IMG/VR virus record: IMGVR_UViG_3300026519_000051
Coordinates: 1 to 30,238 of that record
DNA from: a virus
Length of the DNA stretch: 30,238 nucleotides
Strand: one strand, 5' to 3'
Shown here: piece after piece, positions 1 through 30,238 of the stretch
Numbering within the stretch: the stretch's first letter is position 1
Layout of the letters: the number at the start of each line of letters is the position of its first letter
Made by a program: the position numbers and the translations under genes
Notes under the pieces: generated by a model
What the model was told of the DNA's origin: nothing
The model's database searches: none
Seen by the model: only the letters and a program-made list of their open reading frames with translations

Positions 1-145
1 GGCGCGGGTCTCTTGGAGTAGCTCGGTCGTATTGGGGACGACCAGGAGTATCGGGGACTGGACGTCCTTCGGATCGGCCTCCGGGATGAGTGCGCGCGAG
101 ACGGTGAGAGAGACTGGCCAGGTCTGGCCGGCCAGCTCGGTGACG
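1..145. repeat. Terminal direct repeat, left copy (circle-closing overlap)
   Basis: Bases 1-145 are repeated at 30094-30238 with one difference (G at 127, A at 30220). The difference falls in the third position of a glycine codon of the gene spanning the junction, so it is silent. An open reading frame continues without interruption from one end into the other, which shows that the two ends are the same locus and that the genome unit is about 30,093 bp. This fits a circular or circularly permuted phage genome opened at random, or assembly overlap. It is not evidence for a physical terminal repeat used in packaging. Confidence 0.9.
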
Positions 146-10484: not shown

Positions 10485-11112
10485 CTATAGCTCGGGTGCC
10501 GGGCGTGGTGACGTCAGGAGGTGGATGACTCGCCGTCCAATCCACTCGGCGATCTGCGGGACGACGGCATTTCCGAGGCATCTGATGCGGTCCACCCGAT
10601 TGGGAACCCCATGAGCCACTCGACCCACGTCGGGTTCAGCAGCCCACCACTCGCTACGTCCAGGGCTTTCGATGATGGCGCGCATTTCGGATGCGGATAC
10701 ATGATGGCTATAGTCTGTAGATCCGGCTGCTTGCCGCTTCCAGGACGACGATTTTTGGTCGCAGTAGTGAAGCCACGCGAACGGCCTCGAAAAACAGCCC
10801 GCTTCGTGTGCCGTGGAGTCCTGCACCTCGTCCGGCGCAGGAAATGTCCTGGCAGGGGAAGCCGCCGCAGATGACGTCGACTGAGTAACGCTCGGCCCAG
10901 CGATGGCGTGTCCATGGCGATTCGGGCGGCGGCGGAAATGTTCGAACGTCCCGGTACTTCGGTACGTTGGGCCAGTGTCTCTCAAGGACCTTCGTAGCAT
11001 AGTCGTCTATCTCCACTTGCCATCGGCAGCGCATGCCAGCACGGTCGAATCCCAGATCGAATCCGCCGATGCCTGCAAAGAGGCTGCCGTAGGTGATCTG
11101 TGGCGGGCTCAT
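10485..11112 (-). pseudogene. Decayed cytosine-5 DNA methyltransferase
   Basis: The intact reading begins at ATG 11112 (overlapping the nuclease TGA) with motif I, GSLFAGIGGFDLGFDRAG, then motif IV, VICGGFPCQDISCAGRG, carrying the catalytic Cys, and SGLFFEAVRVASLLRPKIVVLE before it diverges and stops at 10708. About 60 codons later the C-terminal signatures are still legible but in two other frames: LNPTWVEWLMGFPIGWT in one, and HGVPNRVDRIRCLGNAVVPQ (motif X) in another. The region between motifs VI and X, which should hold the target-recognition domain of 100 or more residues, is missing. I read this as an internal deletion plus frameshift. A 134-residue N-terminal fragment may still be translated. 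Confidence 0.8.
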
Positions 11113-11900
11113 GTGTCGGAGCGATGGGTGTCCAGGAGTGCGCGTAGTGCGGAGATTGGTTTCTCGAGTTCTCGGAGCTGGAACTGGAGCGACTGGGTGA
11201 AGGCGGTGAGCTGAGAGAGGATTCGTTGTGGGTGGGTGTGGACGAGCAGTTTGACGACCGTTCCAATGTCGCCGGCGGTCCAGGGGTCGTGGATGGAGAG
11301 TCCCGAGGCGGACTCGAATTTTTCGACGGCGCCTGCGATGCGCTCGAAGCGCTCGAGCTGTCGGCATCGGTCTCGGCTGCGACTGAGTTCGGCGTTGAGG
11401 TCGTTTGTTTTTCGCGCGGCGAGTCGCGAGACGTCATCCTCGGAGTATCCGCAGGAGTGCTTGAGGTGCCGGACGAGACTGGCGAAGAGCATGAGGTCCG
11501 GCGGCTTTGCGTCGTTCGCGGCTGGGCGCTTGCGGACGATGTTTCGCTTGTGGCCGACCTCAATGTAGCCCCAGGTATCTGGCACTTCTTCGACCTCGAC
11601 CACTCCCTTTGGCGCGGCAACGAACCAGTAGCGGCAGTGGGGGATAAACGCGTCGGCCTTTTTCGGGTTGCGCAGTTCGGCCCTCCAATCCGATCGGGAC
11701 ATCTTGATCTCCACCCCCTCGATGTAGATTCCACGGCTCGGCCAAATGGAGACCGCGAGCAGATCGGCATATCCTTCGCGCTTTCGCGCGAATCCGGTGC
11801 CGGATCGTACCTCGCGGAAGGTGCACCATTGGTCGCCGGCATATCGAGTATTTTCGAGTCGCTTTGCGACGTCGAGCGCGGTCATGGGATGGTGGGTCAT
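11109..11900 (-). CDS. PD-(D/E)XK nuclease-like protein (MmcB-like)
   Basis: 263 residues. Residues 8-115 carry a restriction-endonuclease-like core: Glu30 in TFREVRSGTG, REGYADLLAVS with Asp46, and GVEIKMSRSDW with Glu64-x-Lys66, then a basic and aromatic strand (HCRYWFVAAPKGVVE). The SRSDWRAELRNPKKADAF segment is typical of a phage and DNA-repair family related to MmcB. The C-terminal half (about 150-260) is long helices (LSRSRDRCRQLERFERIAGAVEKF), probably for oligomerisation. It probably acts on DNA ends or structures during replication or recombination. It overlaps the decayed methyltransferase by 4 nt, so a former restriction-modification link is possible but not shown. Confidence 0.75.
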   Translation of the reverse strand: MTHHPMTALDVAKRLENTRYAGDQWCTFREVRSGTGFARKREGYADLLAVSIWPSRGIYIEGVEIKMSRSDWRAELRNPKKADAFIPHCRYWFVAAPKGVVEVEEVPDTWGYIEVGHKRNIVRKRPAANDAKPPDLMLFASLVRHLKHSCGYSEDDVSRLAARKTNDLNAELSRSRDRCRQLERFERIAGAVEKFESASGLSIHDPWTAGDIGTVVKLLVHTHPQRILSQLTAFTQSLQFQLRELEKPISALRALLDTHRSDT

Positions 11901-14008: not shown

Positions 14009-14558
14009 CGGCAGGTACGGATGGTGTAGTTGGCACGTATTGTTGGAGGCTCGTGAGCATGTCGAGGCGGTCTCGCTCGTGGTCGTGGTTGGGGATGGGA
14101 CAGGTATAGGAATGTGCCGGGTCGAGTTCGGCGGCGAGCCGCTTGGTGTGCGGAGTCCGTGGGAAGAGCTGCCGGAGTTCGGCAGCGCGGGCGGCGATGT
14201 CGGCGCGACGGAGCTTTGGGTGGTTGAAGAGGCGGAAGTCGAATCCGTAGACGTCGGCGATGTGGATGTCGATATTCATCTCGAGGAAAATGAGGTCCGC
14301 CGGCTTCATGGGAGCGGCGACGTCGCCGAAGCCGGTGTAGGCTTCGTGCGCGTCGTGAAGGAGCGCTGGGAGACGGAGCCAGGGTGGCACAATGTGGGAG
14401 ACGATCAGCGAGTGGCGCGCGACGCTGATGGGCATGGTGGAGTTTCCTTGCCATCGGTGGATGCGGGATAGTGCTCGGCTGATGTAGTGCGGCGAGTAGT
14501 CGAGGGTGTGCGGGTTGGTCGGGTCAAACGTCGTTCCGTCGTGGGCGATCAGTTTCAT
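13983..14558 (-). CDS. HD-domain phosphohydrolase (YfbR-like nucleotidase)
   Basis: 191 residues from ATG 14558, which begins MKLIAHDGTTFDPTNPH. The metal site is spelled out by RIHRW (His34), ISVARHSLIVSHIV (His49), and ALLHDAHEAYTGFGD (His68-Asp69, Asp79). The layout matches phage HD hydrolases related to YfbR 5'-deoxynucleotidase, which dephosphorylate dNMPs and adjust nucleotide pools; other HD enzymes act on signalling nucleotides. The first 35 nt overlap the end of csrA, so translation is probably coupled. Confidence 0.8.
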   Translation of the reverse strand: MKLIAHDGTTFDPTNPHTLDYSPHYISRALSRIHRWQGNSTMPISVARHSLIVSHIVPPWLRLPALLHDAHEAYTGFGDVAAPMKPADLIFLEMNIDIHIADVYGFDFRLFNHPKLRRADIAARAAELRQLFPRTPHTKRLAAELDPAHSYTCPIPNHDHERDRLDMLTSLQQYVPTTPSVPADATTTPDH

Positions 14559-14706
14559 GGCTCTTTCTCGGTAGTCGTTGGATGTTGACGTCGTCTGGCG
14601 CTGCGATGGCGAGGCGGACGCGATTCGCGTCGATCCGGCGGACGTAGACGCGAATTTGGTCGCCGATGGCGATGGATTCACCGACTTTTCGGGTGAGAAC
14701 TAGCAT
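14524..14706 (-). CDS. csrA: CsrA-family translational regulator
   Basis: 60 residues, the size of bacterial CsrA/RsmA. The sequence MLVLTRKVGESIAIGDQIRV, then RRIDANRVRLAIAAPDDVNIQR, follows the family along its whole five-strand core. The RNA-contacting residues Leu4, Arg6 and Arg44 are kept. CsrA dimers bind GGA in hairpin loops near ribosome sites and repress or stabilise mRNAs, and in many bacteria they control flagellin. It lies between, and overlaps, the sigma-factor and HD genes, so regulation of the phage's own leaders or a takeover of host control are both possible. Confidence 0.92.
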   Translation of the reverse strand: MLVLTRKVGESIAIGDQIRVYVRRIDANRVRLAIAAPDDVNIQRLPRKSHETDRPRRNDV

Positions 14707-15254
14707 GTGGTCGTGCTCCGTTGTCTCAGGCAGGTAATGGCGTGGTCGTGGATGTCTCTGGCTTTGGCTTCAGTGACGGACAGGAATCGCGCGATGTCGT
14801 GGAAGGAGTGGCCCAGCCAATAGCGTGCGTAGAAGACGATGGTGGCGAGTGGTGGAAGTCCTTCGAGCTCGTCGTCGCTTGAGCGCCGGCGCGAGTCGGG
14901 GAGGTCGGGCTGGAGCGGGAAGTGCAGGACGTCGCGGATGGCTCCGGATTTGATGCGGCGACGCATGCTATCCGGTAGTCTGTCGTCGCGGCGGAGCTGG
15001 TCGGTAATGGCTCCGTTCATGTAATACCAGGCGAAGGTTGGGAAGCTGACTCCTCGCGTGGGGTCGAACCGCTCGATGGCGCGGATGAGGCCGAGAGATG
15101 CGGCCCCGAGTAGGTCGGCTGGCTCGTATCGTGGGAGATTCCGTGCGCGTAGCCTGGCGGTGCGCTCGGCGAGGTAGAGGTAGCGCTCAACCAGTTCGTT
15201 CCGTCGCTGCGTGGTGGGGGTGTTGTGGTAGGTGGTCCAGATGTGGTCGATCAT
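14700..15254 (-). CDS. FliA/WhiG-like sigma-70 family factor
   Basis: 184 residues, shorter than cellular FliA (about 240). Region 2 runs from about 18 to 90: LVERYLYLAERTARLRARNLP, ADLLGAASLGLIRAIERFDP and RGVSFPTFAWYYMNGAITDQLRRDD in order. A brief region 3 (LPDSMRRRIKSG) and region 4 (LPPLATIVFYARYWLGHSF through TEAKARDIHDHAITCLRQR) follow. The GVSFPTFAxYYxxGAIxDxLR pattern with no region 1 is that of flagellar-type group 3 sigma factors. It probably redirects host RNA polymerase to phage promoters. The 3' end overlaps csrA by 7 nt and the 5' end overlaps the integrase by 68 nt. Confidence 0.88.
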   Translation of the reverse strand: MIDHIWTTYHNTPTTQRRNELVERYLYLAERTARLRARNLPRYEPADLLGAASLGLIRAIERFDPTRGVSFPTFAWYYMNGAITDQLRRDDRLPDSMRRRIKSGAIRDVLHFPLQPDLPDSRRRSSDDELEGLPPLATIVFYARYWLGHSFHDIARFLSVTEAKARDIHDHAITCLRQRSTTTC

Positions 15255-16722: not shown

Positions 16723-16807
16723 AAAATAGTCCACGTGGTGGTATACTGGTGGGCGATGGGGCGGCGTGTGAGTGTCTGGTGGTGGTTTTCTGCGTGGAGG
16801 GTGTGCC

Positions 16808-17644
16808 GTGCGGTGTGTGGCATTTTTCGCGGCTCTGTGCGTGGTGTTCGGGTGTGCGGACGTGGGCGAAGTCGAGGTGTCGAGGGATGCGGCGGTCAAT
16901 GAAGCGCGGGTGGGCGCGAGTGATGAAGGGGTGAAGGAGCCAGCAGGGGACGGCAACGTCGCGGGTGACAGCGGCGTGGGAGGTTCAGCAGCGCGGGAGG
17001 CTGATCTGATTTTGGAGGGGTGGCATTTTCGGAGTGAGGATGGGTGGGTTCATGTGCGCGGGCGAGTGACGAACAATACGGGGGAGCGTCTCGCGAATGT
17101 GATGGTAGTGGCGCAGTTTTTCACGGCGAGCGGGCAATTCGTGAAGACGGCGGAGGCTGTCGTCGATTTCAACCCGATTTTGCCGGGGCAGACCAGTCCA
17201 TTTCATGCGTGGACGAGTGGGAATCCGGCGATAGCGCGAGCGACGATAAGTTTCTCGCGTCCGCTAGGTGGTACCTTTTCGTTGGCGACTCGGGAGGAGT
17301 ATGAGGCGCCGACACCGGAGGAGTTGGCAGCGGCGAAACGTGCGCGAGAGGAGCTGGAGCGGAAACGACGCGAGCTGGAGGAGCGTATAGCGGAGGCTGA
17401 AGAGAAGGCGAAATGGCGGACGTGGAAGACAGCGGACGGTCTGCATGAGCGGCGTGCGAAGTTCGTTGGTTTGCGAGCGGGAAAGGTGACACTCGAGAAG
17501 GAGGACGGATCGCGCGTTGAGTTGGGGCTGGATGTGCTCTGCGAGGCGGATCAGGAGTTCATTCGGCGCCGGGAATGGACGAAGGCCAGCCGGGAGTTGC
17601 GGCGGGAGCTGAAGGACCTCGGGAAGGCAAATGGGGGGAAGTAA
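16808..17644 (+). CDS. Lipoprotein with SHD1-like C-terminal domain (lysogenic-conversion candidate)
   Basis: 278 residues from GTG 16808, chosen for GGAGG seven bases upstream and because the signal sequence then starts cleanly; an upstream ATG at 16772 is the alternative. The signal VAFFAALCVVFGC ends in a lipobox with Cys16. A Gly/Ala/Glu-rich linker follows, then an FxLYD-like beta domain (about 65-160: HFRSEDGWVHVRGRVTNNTG, RLANVMVVAQFF, ATISFSRP). Next come a charged coiled coil (LAAAKRAREELERKRRELEE) and an SHD1-like domain (RTWKTADGLHERRAKFVG, GKVTLEKEDGSRVELGL, LCEADQEFIRRR). SHD1 domains of this sort abound in planctomycete secreted proteins. It is the only plus-strand gene, set between attP and the early operon, typical of a gene expressed from the prophage. 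Confidence 0.83.
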   Translation: MRCVAFFAALCVVFGCADVGEVEVSRDAAVNEARVGASDEGVKEPAGDGNVAGDSGVGGSAAREADLILEGWHFRSEDGWVHVRGRVTNNTGERLANVMVVAQFFTASGQFVKTAEAVVDFNPILPGQTSPFHAWTSGNPAIARATISFSRPLGGTFSLATREEYEAPTPEELAAAKRAREELERKRRELEERIAEAEEKAKWRTWKTADGLHERRAKFVGLRAGKVTLEKEDGSRVELGLDVLCEADQEFIRRREWTKASRELRRELKDLGKANGGK

Positions 17645-26309: not shown

Positions 26310-28271
26310 TCAGTCGGCGAATACGAGTTTGCCGTTGTCTGCCTTTCGGTTGAGCTTGTCGACGCCCTCGGCCGTTTTCTCGGCGGCGCTGGCGGTGCGT
26401 TCGGCGATGGAAGTGGTGGCGAGCCCGCGGATCGCCGATGAGAGGAAAGCGCCTCGGGCGCTCGATTTGGCTGGTCCGGGCGGGTCGTCGTCGGCACCGG
26501 GGTCGTTGGCTCGCGCGGCGAGTTTGGCGCGTTCGACGGCGGCTTTTTGGGCTTTGAACTGTGCCTCGAGTTTAGCTCGCTCGAGTTCGGCTCGGAGGCG
26601 GGCGAGTTCTGGGTCGTCGACCGGTTCGAGGGCCTTGCGTCGTGCGTCGTCGGTCTTTCGTCGTCGGGCGGCGAGCTGGCGATCGATGTCGCGGTTGAGG
26701 TCGGCCGTGGTGCGGGCGTTCCGCTCGACGTTCTGCGCGTGGGCGGCGGAGCGATCGGCGATGGTGCCGGCTGCGTCGGCGCGGATCTTGGCGGCTTTTC
26801 GTTCGGCCGCTGTGTTGATGCGGTCGATTTCTTTGGCGAGGTCGACGGACGTGAAGAGGCTTTTGATGCGGAGCCAGATTTTCTGGAAGAAGGCGGCGAA
26901 GTTGACCCAGCCGATTTTGATGGTCGAGATGGCGGTGGTCATGGCGTTTGCGAGTGCGGTGGTCACGCCGGACCAGATGGTTTTGAGCGCGCCCCAGGTG
27001 GTGAAGGCGGCTTTCGTGAGTTGTGCTCCGGCGAGGTCGAAGGTATCGCGGAAGAATGCGAGCCAGAGTTTCCACTCGGTTTTGAGGATGTTGACGCCGC
27101 GAATCCACTCGGTCTTGAGCGTGAGCCAGAGGATTTGTGCGGCGAGCTTGAAGTCGCCGGCCGAGAGTGCATCGATGATGGCACCGAAGGAATCGGTCGC
27201 GCGCTGGGCGAGCGATGCGAATCCGTCTTTGAGGTCGGATAGGAGTTGTTGGCCGGCGCCGGTGAAGTTGACGGCGGCGGCAGCGGCGCCGACGAGGGCG
27301 GCGACGAAAAGGCCCCAGGGCGAGAGAATGGCGCCGACAATGCCGGCGACGGCGGATAGGACGGTCGAGATGGCTCCGATGGCGAACGAGACGGTGGTCG
27401 CGGCGATTGAGAGGCCGAGGAAGGCAGCGCCGGCGGCCGCGACTGCGGCGCCGACGCCGAAGATAATTGGGATGAGCGGACCGGAGGAACGGATGAAATC
27501 GATGATGGGTGGGACGGTCTGGCGGAGGGCGTCGGACAGCCAGATCATGGCGGGGGCGAGTTGGCGGCCGATGGCGAGTTTCAGGAAATTGGCGGTCTGT
27601 TTGAGTCGGAAGAAGGCGTCGGTGAGGGCGGCCGCGCTGGTCGCGTCTTCGGTGGACATGACGAGGCCGAGGGATTTAGCCTCGTCCATGGCGGATCGTA
27701 GTCCTTTGGCGCCGTCTCGGAGCATCGGTAGGAGTTTAGTGCCGGCGCGGCCGAAAATGGTAGATGCGAGCGCGGCTCGGAGGGTGTTGTTCTCGACGGT
27801 GGAGAGGGCGCCGGCGACGTCGAGGAAGAGCGTCTCGGTGGATTTCAGCCGGCCGGTTGAGTCGGTGACGGAGATTCCGAGTTGGCGGAATGCGTCGGCG
27901 GCTAGTCCGGTGCCGCGTGTGGCGGCCTTGGCGTTTCGCTGCATCCGGCGGATTCCGATTTCCATTTCGGCGATCGACGTGCCGCCGAGTTGGGCGGCGT
28001 GGTTGAGTGCGGAGAGAAACTCGACGGAGGCTCCGACTCGTGCGGACATTTTGTCGAGCGCGTCGCCGGCACGAGCGAATGAGGCGGTCATGGCGAGGAG
28101 TGGTGTGGCGGCGGCGGCGCCGGCGGCGGAGAGGCGGAGGGCAGTAGCGCGGACGGCGGCGGCGAAGGCGCGGACGCGGGCTTGGGCGCGTTTGAGTCCG
28201 CGGGCGAGTCGCGAGTCGTCGGCGAAGAGTTCGACGAAGGCTCTACCGGCCCGGATCGCGTTGGCGCTCAT
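26310..28271 (-). CDS. Tape-measure protein
   Basis: 653 residues, the largest virion protein apart from terminase. Long helices (LARGLKRAQARVRAFAAAVRA, LARLRAELERAKLEAQFKAQ) flank several hydrophobic segments in the middle (PLIPIIFGVGAAVAAAGAAF, LFVAALVGAAAAAVNFTG). The N-terminal portion has the tail-length TMP pattern (DALDKMSARVGASVEFLSAL, FGRAGTKLLPMLRDGAKGL). It sets tail length and is ejected with DNA. By the common rule of about 0.15 nm per residue, the tail would be near 100 nm, a rough inference. It overlaps the frameshifted chaperone by 29 nt. Confidence 0.9.
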   Translation of the reverse strand: MSANAIRAGRAFVELFADDSRLARGLKRAQARVRAFAAAVRATALRLSAAGAAAATPLLAMTASFARAGDALDKMSARVGASVEFLSALNHAAQLGGTSIAEMEIGIRRMQRNAKAATRGTGLAADAFRQLGISVTDSTGRLKSTETLFLDVAGALSTVENNTLRAALASTIFGRAGTKLLPMLRDGAKGLRSAMDEAKSLGLVMSTEDATSAAALTDAFFRLKQTANFLKLAIGRQLAPAMIWLSDALRQTVPPIIDFIRSSGPLIPIIFGVGAAVAAAGAAFLGLSIAATTVSFAIGAISTVLSAVAGIVGAILSPWGLFVAALVGAAAAAVNFTGAGQQLLSDLKDGFASLAQRATDSFGAIIDALSAGDFKLAAQILWLTLKTEWIRGVNILKTEWKLWLAFFRDTFDLAGAQLTKAAFTTWGALKTIWSGVTTALANAMTTAISTIKIGWVNFAAFFQKIWLRIKSLFTSVDLAKEIDRINTAAERKAAKIRADAAGTIADRSAAHAQNVERNARTTADLNRDIDRQLAARRRKTDDARRKALEPVDDPELARLRAELERAKLEAQFKAQKAAVERAKLAARANDPGADDDPPGPAKSSARGAFLSSAIRGLATTSIAERTASAAEKTAEGVDKLNRKADNGKLVFAD

Positions 28272-28940
28272 CAGCGACTCCTGGGAAGAGGTGTTTCAGG
28301 TCGGTGATGCGGGAGCGTTTCACGGGTTGTGGCTTTGGCGTGGCGCGGTACGGGTGGAAGTCTGCGGGTGAGAATCGTCTTCCTTTGCTGGCGTGGATGT
28401 TGGCTTGTTGGGCGAGGAGGGAGCTGGTGTGGTCCCATCGGTCGAGCTGGACTGCTCGGGCCATCCAGTGGAGCTCGCGGAGGGTGTATGACCAGGGCGG
28501 TTGGCCGATGATGGCGGCGAGCTCGAAGAGGTGCCTCCAGAGGTCAGGTGCGCCGGATCGATCTTCGCCATGGTCTCGATCGCCTTCTCCGCGTTCGTCT
28601 CGACGATGCGGTTGATGGTCCGAAGCGCCGCGCGGAGGACGCGGCGCTTCGGGCTCGGGAAAAAATCGGCGAGGGCCTCCAGGAAGGCGGTGGTGGCCTG
28701 GTCGAGAGTGTCGCCGGCTAGACCGCGGGCGAATTCGACCTCGTCCAATCCGTGGCGGTCAAGTGGCCGGCAGACAACCCAGAGTGCGGCGACGAGGGCG
28801 ACCGGGTCGTCGCAGAGGGTGGCAAGGGTCTGCTCATCGAGTTTGCCGACATCGACACCCACTGCCTTGAGGGCGATGGCGTCGGCGGCGGTGATGCGGA
28901 CGGGCCAGGTGCGGCCGGCGAGGTCGGTGAAGGATGGCAT
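28243..28940 (-). CDS. Tail assembly chaperone, -1 frameshift fusion (GT-like)
   Basis: Translation starts at 28940 and slips by -1 at 28659-28665 after 94 codons, giving about 232 residues. The second frame is open from the slip site to the TGA at 28243 and holds a convincing domain: DLWRHLFELAAIIGQPPWSY, TLRELHWMARAVQLDRWDH and LLAQQANIHASKGRRFSP. The GQPPWxYTLRELHWM pattern is typical of T-part chaperones that recruit tail-tube subunits. The end overlaps the tape-measure start by 29 nt. If the slip occurred nearer DPAHLT instead, the fusion would be longer; both readings join the same two domains. Confidence 0.75.
28320..28940 (-). CDS. Tail assembly chaperone, short product (G-like)
   Basis: 206 residues read in the zero frame. 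The conserved part runs from FTDLAGRTWPVRITAADA to DPAHLTSG (residues 3-136). The remainder is Ser/Thr/Pro-rich low complexity that shadows the real coding frame of the fusion partner. It lies between tail-tube and tape-measure genes, the standard position of the chaperone that coats tape measure before tail assembly. At codons 93-94 the slippery sequence described separately redirects some ribosomes. Confidence 0.78.
   Translation of the reverse strand: MPSFTDLAGRTWPVRITAADAIALKAVGVDVGKLDEQTLATLCDDPVALVAALWVVCRPLDRHGLDEVEFARGLAGDTLDQATTAFLEALADFFPSPKRRVLRAALRTINRIVETNAEKAIETMAKIDPAHLTSGGTSSSSPPSSANRPGHTPSASSTGWPEQSSSTDGTTPAPSSPNKPTSTPAKEDDSHPQTSTRTAPRQSHNP
28620..28665 (-). promoter_or_regulatory. 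Programmed -1 ribosomal frameshift signal
   Basis: On the coding strand the heptamer T-TTT-TTC (28659-28665), in the zero frame of the short chaperone, is followed by a 6-nt spacer. After it comes a perfect 13-bp hairpin, CCGAAGCGCCGCG (28640-28652 complement) against CGCGGCGCTTCGG (28620-28632 complement), with a 7-nt loop. Heptamer type, spacing and stem strength all match known -1 sites in tail chaperone genes. Confidence 0.85.
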
Positions 28941-28946
28941 AGGAGA

Positions 28947-29390
28947 TCAGAGGGTAACCCAGGCGGGGGCGTTGGCGGCGAAGGTCGGTTTGAGTGCCAC
29001 GGAGACGGTGTTTTGTCCGGTGAGGGGTTCGGCTCGGGAAAACTTGGTGACGGCGAAGGAGGCGCGGAGTCCGTGGGCATCGGCGGGGGTGTTGCCGATG
29101 ACGCCGTCGAGGACCGCGAGCTCGATGGCGCTGCGGTTGAGGTAGGCGTCGCGAAAGGCTTGAAGGTCGGTGTCGTCGGGATCCCAGTTCATGTCGAAGG
29201 TGATTTCGGCCTCCTTTAGTGTCGTGACGGCGGCGGCCCAGCCGCCGGTGCCTCGGGTGGAGGCGTCGGCTTCTTGCGCGCTCATCTCGAGCGAGAGGTC
29301 TTTGAGGTTGGACACCTCGTCCCAGGTGGGGGAGGCGTAGGTGCCGGTGTTGCGGTAGAGCTTGCTGGTGAGTCCGATTCTCAGCGACAT
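28947..29390 (-). CDS. Major tail tube protein
   Basis: 147 residues. SLRIGLTSKLYRNTGTYASP, then WDEVSNLKDLSLEMSAQEADAS, TRGTGGWAAAVTTLKEAEI, and FDMNWDPDDTDLQAFRDAYL follow the tail-tube pattern of siphoviruses: an N-terminal strand, NVxDV-type strand, a TRGxGGW loop and the long helix. The C terminus (SVALKPTFAANAPAWVTL) is the usual last strand. It stacks in hexameric rings around the tape measure. It lies between the neck genes and the chaperone. The 13-mer GCCCGATAACACT precedes it, and GGAGGACC supplies the ribosome site. Confidence 0.9.
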   Translation of the reverse strand: MSLRIGLTSKLYRNTGTYASPTWDEVSNLKDLSLEMSAQEADASTRGTGGWAAAVTTLKEAEITFDMNWDPDDTDLQAFRDAYLNRSAIELAVLDGVIGNTPADAHGLRASFAVTKFSRAEPLTGQNTVSVALKPTFAANAPAWVTL

Positions 29391-29848: not shown

Positions 29849-30238
29849 GGCGATCGGTATCGGGCTTGGATGATGGAGATGAACAGTCGGGCGTCGCGGA
29901 TGGCCTGGTTGCTGTAGACGACGCGCATGGCTGGTGGTTCCGGGAGAGCGGTCGGGGCGCCGGAGAGTGTGAGCGCGGAGAGGTGTTTGGCGATTTTTTC
30001 CGCGGTGTCAATGAGTGGATCGAGGGTGGAGGGCTTCTCGTCGCCGGCTGGGGCGATGAGGGCGAGGTCGAGCGTGACGCGGTAGAGAAAGTGGGCGCGG
30101 GTCTCTTGGAGTAGCTCGGTCGTATTGGGGACGACCAGGAGTATCGGGGACTGGACGTCCTTCGGATCGGCCTCCGGGATGAGTGCGCGCGAGACGGTGA
30201 GAGAGACTGGCCAGGTCTGACCGGCCAGCTCGGTGACG
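29845..30238 (-). CDS. Neck/tail-completion protein, C-terminal part (continues from 177)
   Basis: The 3' portion of the 141-residue protein begun at 177-1. Residues include DVQSPILLVVPNTTELLQE, TRAHFLYRVTLDLALIAPA, LDPLIDTAEKIAKHLSAL and MRVVYSNQAIRDARLFISII. This alternation of strand, helix, strand with an AEKIAxxL helix is common among phage tail-terminator or head-tail joining proteins. The TGA at 29845 overlaps the GTG of the gp10-like gene. Bases 30094-30238 duplicate 1-145. Confidence 0.72.
   Translation of the reverse strand, partial: VTELAGQTWPVSLTVSRALIPEADPKDVQSPILLVVPNTTELLQETRAHFLYRVTLDLALIAPAGDEKPSTLDPLIDTAEKIAKHLSALTLSGAPTALPEPPAMRVVYSNQAIRDARLFISIIQARYRSP
30094..30238. repeat. 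Terminal direct repeat, right copy
   Basis: Second copy of the 145-bp sequence found at 1-145, differing only at 30220. The single silent mismatch suggests within-population variation or a sequencing error rather than two independent loci. Confidence 0.9.

Follow-up and report, generated by a model that had tools for sequence, protein, structure and literature searches.

The gene between the tail tube and tape measure genes of a virus represented by a metagenomic record raises the question of whether it encodes one tail assembly chaperone or two and, if two, at which codon the reading frame would change. The window, i.e., the whole stretch of DNA analyzed here, comprises the 30,238 nucleotides of IMG/VR record IMGVR_UViG_3300026519_000051. 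The first-pass annotation, made without database searches, had placed a -1 frameshift signal in this gene. Taking into consideration the sequence comparisons described below, we regard it as very likely (probability about 0.95) that this is a tail assembly chaperone gene of the lambda G/GT type in which a -1 ribosomal frameshift is programmed. The decisive support for the predicted frameshift comes from the comparison of relatives.

Table 1. Coordinates of the chaperone locus, its neighbors and its proposed signals in the window
Feature	Position	Strand	Basis or remark
Major tail (tube) protein, upstream of chaperone gene	28947..29390	-	Pfam PF06199, E 7.9e-9; PHROG 1407, E 1.1e-14
Zero-frame ORF, G-like tail assembly chaperone, 206 aa	28320..28940	-	ORF reading and profile relatives
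Shine-Dalgarno-like GAGG, 10 nt 5' of heptamer (proposed 5' stimulator)	28676..28679	-	GAG bias and anti-SD pairing
Slippery heptamer T-TTT-TTC	28659..28665	-	In frame in 84/115 distinct loci
6-nt spacer CCGAGC	28653..28658	-	Stems of relatives commonly begin 3-7 nt past heptamer
Stem-loop, 13 perfect bp, 7-nt loop (proposed 3' stimulator)	28620..28652	-	Folding
-1 frame extension of GT-like product (232 aa in all)	28243..28665	-	Stop 28245-28243
Dual-coded stretch: zero frame, G C-terminal helix (residues 98-126); -1 frame, linker PEPEAPRPPRGASDHQ...	28549..28658	-	Substitution rates
T-like domain, conserved W at 28539, then LAxxxGxxPxxxTLRELxWMA	28246..28548	-	PF06223 in family; AlphaFold2 pLDDT 88
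Zero-frame tail overlapping T core, probably by-product coding	28320..28541	-	Longest of 110 complete loci
Tape measure protein, start inside end of -1 frame	26310..28271	-	PHROG 8462, E 9.2e-47

Gene order, reading frames and proposed frameshift signal

The tail genes of the window are all encoded on the minus strand, with the chaperone gene downstream of the one for the major tail protein and upstream of the tape measure gene (Table 1). The zero-frame ORF overlaps, in the -1 relation, a second ORF without a start of its own; this -1 frame stays open past the tape measure ATG at 28271, so that the two overlap by 29 nt, and the second domain overlapping the tape measure start that the first-pass annotation had described is present. 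Among the relatives, the tail tube gene was found on the expected side in 76 of the 77 loci with a match and the tape measure gene in all 78 loci with a match.

A slippery heptamer is found at the frame junction. It stands in the X-XXY-YYZ register of the 206-aa ORF, where GAT TTT TTC encodes D92 F93 F94, and while TTTTTTC occurs five times in the window, only one copy is on the minus strand. The minus strand from 28679 to 28620 reads GAGG CCCTCGCCGA T TTT TTC CCGAGC CCGAAGCGCCGCG TCCTCCG CGCGGCGCTTCGG. The in-frame heptamer, the 6-nt gap and the perfect 13-bp hairpin had all been annotated correctly to the base; the GAGG element is an addition to that annotation. The folding energy of the 59 nt 3' of the heptamer is -31.3 kcal/mol (z -3.67 in comparison with dinucleotide shuffles, of which 0 of 200 were as stable), and the stem has a z of -4.4 against synonymous resampling, the strongest among 115 loci.

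Relatives of the locus

In IMG/VR, the zero-frame protein retrieved 36 loci with 26-44% identity, and each of them carries T-TTT-TTC in the corresponding position. The peptide EALADFFP, which was one of the patterns used for searching, constrains amino acids and not codons; searches free of this bias were performed with the T domain alone and, by profile, in 392 Planctomycetota genomes. The search with the T domain alone recovered L038, in which the motif IVDFFQ accompanies the same heptamer, as well as L041-L043, which carry A-AAA-AAG. The G profile identified the gene in 44 of the 392 Planctomycetota genomes, and a separate search with the T profile gave 43 of the same 392. For viral contigs, pattern scans with a profile of the -1 part were precluded by its variability, and a single-sequence T query was used instead. 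The alignment analyzed here includes 126 loci, 115 of them distinct, from IMG/VR phages and Planctomycetota genomes. In GenBank phage records, neither a protein nor a DNA relative of the locus was found.

The host of the phage is probably a member of the Planctomycetota. The SHD1 domain is common among Planctomycetota proteins, and the presence of a gene with this domain on the plus strand of the window (16772-17641; PF03983, E 7e-8) fits such a host. One Planctomycetota genome (G355) carries 9-11 copies of the G/GT cassette at separate places (L059, L104, L108, L110, L111, L129, L130), which look like many related prophages.

As the window is a metagenomic virus record without a cultured relative, the two frames could in principle reflect a sequencing error or a decayed gene. 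This explanation, whose probability we consider negligible, is refuted by the conservation of the same frame relation in more than 100 independent loci.

Conservation of the heptamer and its natural variants

T-TTT-TTC is present in frame in 84 of the 115 distinct loci, another canonical heptamer is found within two codons in 9, and 22 have none. Conservation acts on codons: where DFF is encoded at the slip, 76 of 79 loci use GAT TTT TTC, as compared with approximately 7% expected from background usage (GAT 35%, TTT 28%, TTC 72%). Where the Asp is replaced and the two Phe are kept, the preceding codon still ends in T in 10 of 11 cases (GGT, GCT and TAT, for Gly, Ala and Tyr), the sole exception being the doubtful locus L092. 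The P-site half, T-TTY, is retained in 111 of 115 loci.

Variant sites include A-AAT-TTT, which replaces T-TTT-TTC one codon earlier in four loci, as well as T-TTT-TTT and T-TTC-CCT in two loci each. A branch of 11 loci (L064, L065, L073, L076, L114-L119, L127) carries T-TTC-TGC, with the T domain still in the -1 frame; an 8-bp stem (GCCCGAGG/CCTCGGGC) located 4 nt past this site has remained fixed while its surroundings change. In this side branch, shifting may occur by slippage of the P-site tRNA alone, on half of a heptamer. The fact that the 22 loci without a canonical heptamer keep T in the -1 frame counts against a strict need for it and indicates that the heptamer is not required in every lineage. 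Other T-domain relatives (L041-L043) have A-AAA-AAG near the T domain, at the point from which the -1 frame is open; both slip geometries therefore exist among relatives of the window's T domain.

These variants also bear on whether RNA polymerase, rather than the ribosome, slips on the run of six T in the heptamer. Polymerase slippage on homopolymers has been reported in bacteria for runs of nine A or T (PMC5009743), as compared with which six is a short run. Moreover, relatives that lack the T6 run (A-AAT-TTT, T-TTC-TGC, T-TTC-TTC) share the frame relation, and the codon phasing, together with an SD-like element at 10 nt, suits ribosomes and not polymerase. Slippage during transcription is therefore a very improbable source of the second product.

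The open -1 frame and the T domain

The strongest contrast between the two sides of the heptamer is seen in the -1 stops. Before the slip, 338 stops were found in 10,760 codons of the 115 loci. From the slip to the zero-frame stop only 2 were found in 7,273 codons, where synonymous resampling expects 167 (range 137-200). Both belong to L092, which matches weakly and probably lies outside the family; in the other 114 of the 115 loci, no -1 stop occurs from the heptamer onward. In several loci (L005, L014, L015, L062, L077, L080, L081, L125) a -1 stop lies immediately 5' of the heptamer, and the shift therefore cannot lie upstream of it. Comparison of codon conservation in both frames, the check that the first-pass annotation had proposed, thus supports a -1 shift at T-TTT-TTC, and conservation among relatives likewise supports the gene, the slip site, the direction and the two products named there.

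Wherever a T domain was detected, it lay in the -1 frame. Pfam PF06223 (Phage_tail_T) matches 46 of 64 family members (best E 1.3e-6), making the -1 domain homologous to lambda T at the level of the family; the T domain of the window alone reaches E 0.04-0.07, which is under the curated cut-off.

T could alternatively be made alone, from an internal start and with no fusion, and a GGAGG near 28543, just 5' of the T core, speaks for this. Between the slip and the T core, however, the -1 frame contains no ATG, GTG or TTG in the window or in 93 of 110 loci, and none within 20 codons in 107 of 110. Internal initiation would also leave the open frame back to the heptamer unexplained, and it appears even less probable than slippage of the polymerase.

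Elements that may stimulate the shift

The GAGG upstream of the heptamer resembles a Shine-Dalgarno sequence. Where the codon four positions before the Asp encodes Glu, GAG is used 49 times and GAA 3 times, compared with a ratio of 195:139 elsewhere (Fisher 5e-8). Pairing with the anti-SD sequence 7-11 nt upstream of the heptamer is -7.25 kcal/mol, against -5.51 +/- 0.36 kcal/mol under synonymous resampling, and the exact 16S 3' end containing this sequence (GGATCACCTCCTTT) is present in 5 of the 7 host genomes checked.

When 79 representatives were folded in 45-nt steps, RNA structure was in excess at a single place, immediately 3' of the heptamer, where the mean z is -0.88 +/- 0.16; z is below -2 there in 18 of the 79, as compared with 1-5 in every other step. 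Ungapped covariation across 58 sequences gave no convincing register for a single stem conserved throughout the family. Stems at the same place differ in sequence and length between lineages, which suggests that position is conserved and sequence is not. The locus therefore contains the three parts described for E. coli dnaX, namely an upstream SD element, a slippery heptamer and a downstream stem-loop (PMC5009743). We infer that GAGG and the stem-loop stimulate shifting at the site in the window.

Coding capacity after the slip

Substitution rates were determined from 22 independent pairs of relatives; four pairs from the group L018-L031 were left out because their T domain starts earlier, blurring the dual-coded region. 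After the slip, zero-frame codons change least at position 2 and most at position 3, a pattern that indicates a protein under selection that relaxes towards the end. Divergence at fourfold sites is 0.310 before the slip, 0.100 in the first 15 codons after it and then 0.265 and 0.243, which places most of the extra constraint on the stem-loop and a modest remainder past it.

AlphaFold2 predicts the G-like protein with a pLDDT of 90 (70 sequences). Residues 1-126 are predicted to be folded, and a tail rich in S, P and T follows past about residue 134. The slip lies at the end of a predicted helix (residues 77-93), and a second, confidently predicted helix (residues 98-126, pLDDT approximately 92) exists only in the zero frame; it would therefore be kept by the short product and lost from the long one. 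A fold search of this model against BFVD gave only weak matches (E 0.02) to tail assembly chaperones, searches of the PDB by sequence and by fold gave nothing useful for the zero-frame or the -1 part, and G had no convincing match in Pfam, PHROGs or NCBIfam. In the -1 reading of the dual-coded stretch, large hydrophobic residues account for 5.0% compared with 8.3% expected and D, E, G and Q are enriched, so that this part looks like a flexible, weakly constrained linker.

The first-pass annotation had proposed that both products may carry functional but different middles. This is correct in part: the zero-frame middle is conserved and confidently predicted to be a helix, and the middle of the -1 product is weakly constrained. 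That annotation needs correction in one respect: past DPAHLT, the zero frame of the window appears to be mostly by-product. Most loci have a zero-frame stop approximately 17 codons past the W of the T core. As read from the sequences, this is a TGA that lies inside the codons for Leu-Thr (C-TGA-CC) of TLREL, which is read in the other frame. It is missing from the window, which has Tyr-Thr where others have Leu-Thr, and the zero frame of the window therefore runs on into the longest tail of all; the last ~70 residues, rich in S, P and T, look like a by-product.

Protein-level selection on the zero-frame codons from the slip to DPAHLT, together with the resemblance of their -1 reading to low-complexity filler, would be compatible with a shift nearer the T domain, around DPAHLT, in which case T-TTT-TTC would be incidental. 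The first-pass annotation had itself named such a shift as the outcome that would overturn its reading. In the window, however, no canonical heptamer exists between the slip and the T core, and codon-level invariance, structure excess and the SD-like element are all centered on T-TTT-TTC. When confronted with conservation, the later shift fails, because the GAT T-TTT-TTC codons are kept, the -1 stops end exactly there and structure is found only directly after it; we consider it highly unlikely.

Comparison with known frameshift systems

Like lambda G/GT, the locus combines a -1 shift between the tail tube and tape measure genes with a -1 domain related to T (PF06223). In lambda, the shift occurs near the 3' end of G, the N-terminal part is shared and T is added by the shift (PMC5009743). 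The lambda slip, G-GGA-AAG, is 5 codons before the G stop and GT keeps nearly all of G, whereas T-TTT-TTC in the window is 112 codons before the stop and GT loses the last long helix of G. As the usual geometry, which is typical of lambda-type systems and not required for function, is not found in the window, the locus was classified as a variant of the lambda-type frameshift.

P2 E/E+E' has a T-TTT-TTG slip with the same T run and the same gene position, but the slip is 6 codons before the E stop and P2 is a contractile-tailed phage. Mycobacteriophage D29 has a shifted chaperone pair (gp24/gp25) before the tape measure gene, with its candidate site (GGGGGAA) 6 codons from the stop. The distance from slip to stop is at most 12 codons in Mu and at most 17 in HK97, compared with 36-112 in the family of the window (median 63, 110 loci), so that the long stretch after the slip that was initially annotated as odd is a real feature. 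E. coli dnaX, similar in working, is an unrelated gene in which a shift of 50% at A-AAA-AAG leads to a shorter product.

Proposed mechanism and implications

Under the frameshift model, the majority of ribosomes would pass T-TTT-TTC unshifted and make the G-like protein. A minority would be held on the slippery pair of Phe codons by pairing between GAGG and the 16S anti-SD sequence behind and by the stem-loop ahead; both Phe-tRNAs would then re-pair from UUU-UUC to UUU-UUU, and translation in the -1 frame would yield the GT-like protein. The expected junction is ...LADFF-PEPEAPR..., within the peptide ...LADFFPEPEAPR... with its D-F-F join. By analogy with lambda, G would coat the tape measure protein, and recruitment of the tail tube subunit would fall to the T part of GT. 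Since the slip is well inside the chaperone, after helix 77-93, GT would carry the linker and T in place of helix 98-126.

The mechanism is known, and the early slip with alternative ends is an unusual variant of it. We lean slightly towards the view that, in this phage and prophage family, the frameshift serves as a switch between C-terminal halves, a short one with a conserved helix and a long one with a flexible linker and T. In that case, GT would differ from a plain sum of G and T, and the two forms may differ in how they bind the tape measure protein or each other. The early slip thereby poses a testable question for tail assembly, namely whether GT needs the C-terminal helix of G, and the natural variants without a canonical heptamer are ready tests of what a bacterial -1 site requires.

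The open-access literature yielded no study dealing with this family or with a tail chaperone that contains T-TTT-TTC, and the Planctomycetota G/GT family is unnamed in Pfam, PHROGs and NCBIfam. With strong evidence at the level of codons, the findings extend the G/GT frameshift to phages and prophages that form a common group in Planctomycetota, and the motif GAGG-N10-T-TTT-TTC followed by a stem allows annotators to locate both products.

Other features of the phage genome

The ends of the window (1-145 and 30094-30238) are a direct overlap of 145 bases with one mismatch, and the record is therefore probably complete, representing a genome of about 30.1 kb that is either circularly closed or terminally redundant. 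A gene for a sigma-70-like factor (14703-15254, minus strand; PF04542, E 9.5e-12) is followed directly downstream by an overlapping gene for a CsrA homologue (14527-14706, minus strand; PF02599, E 1.1e-18). A C5 cytosine methylase gene (10488-11367, minus strand) looks split: the N-terminal part, which matches PF00145 (E 9e-27), stops short, and NRVDRIRCLGNAVVPQIAEWIG, which resembles a C-terminal part, is found in another frame. This looks like decay or a shortened gene.
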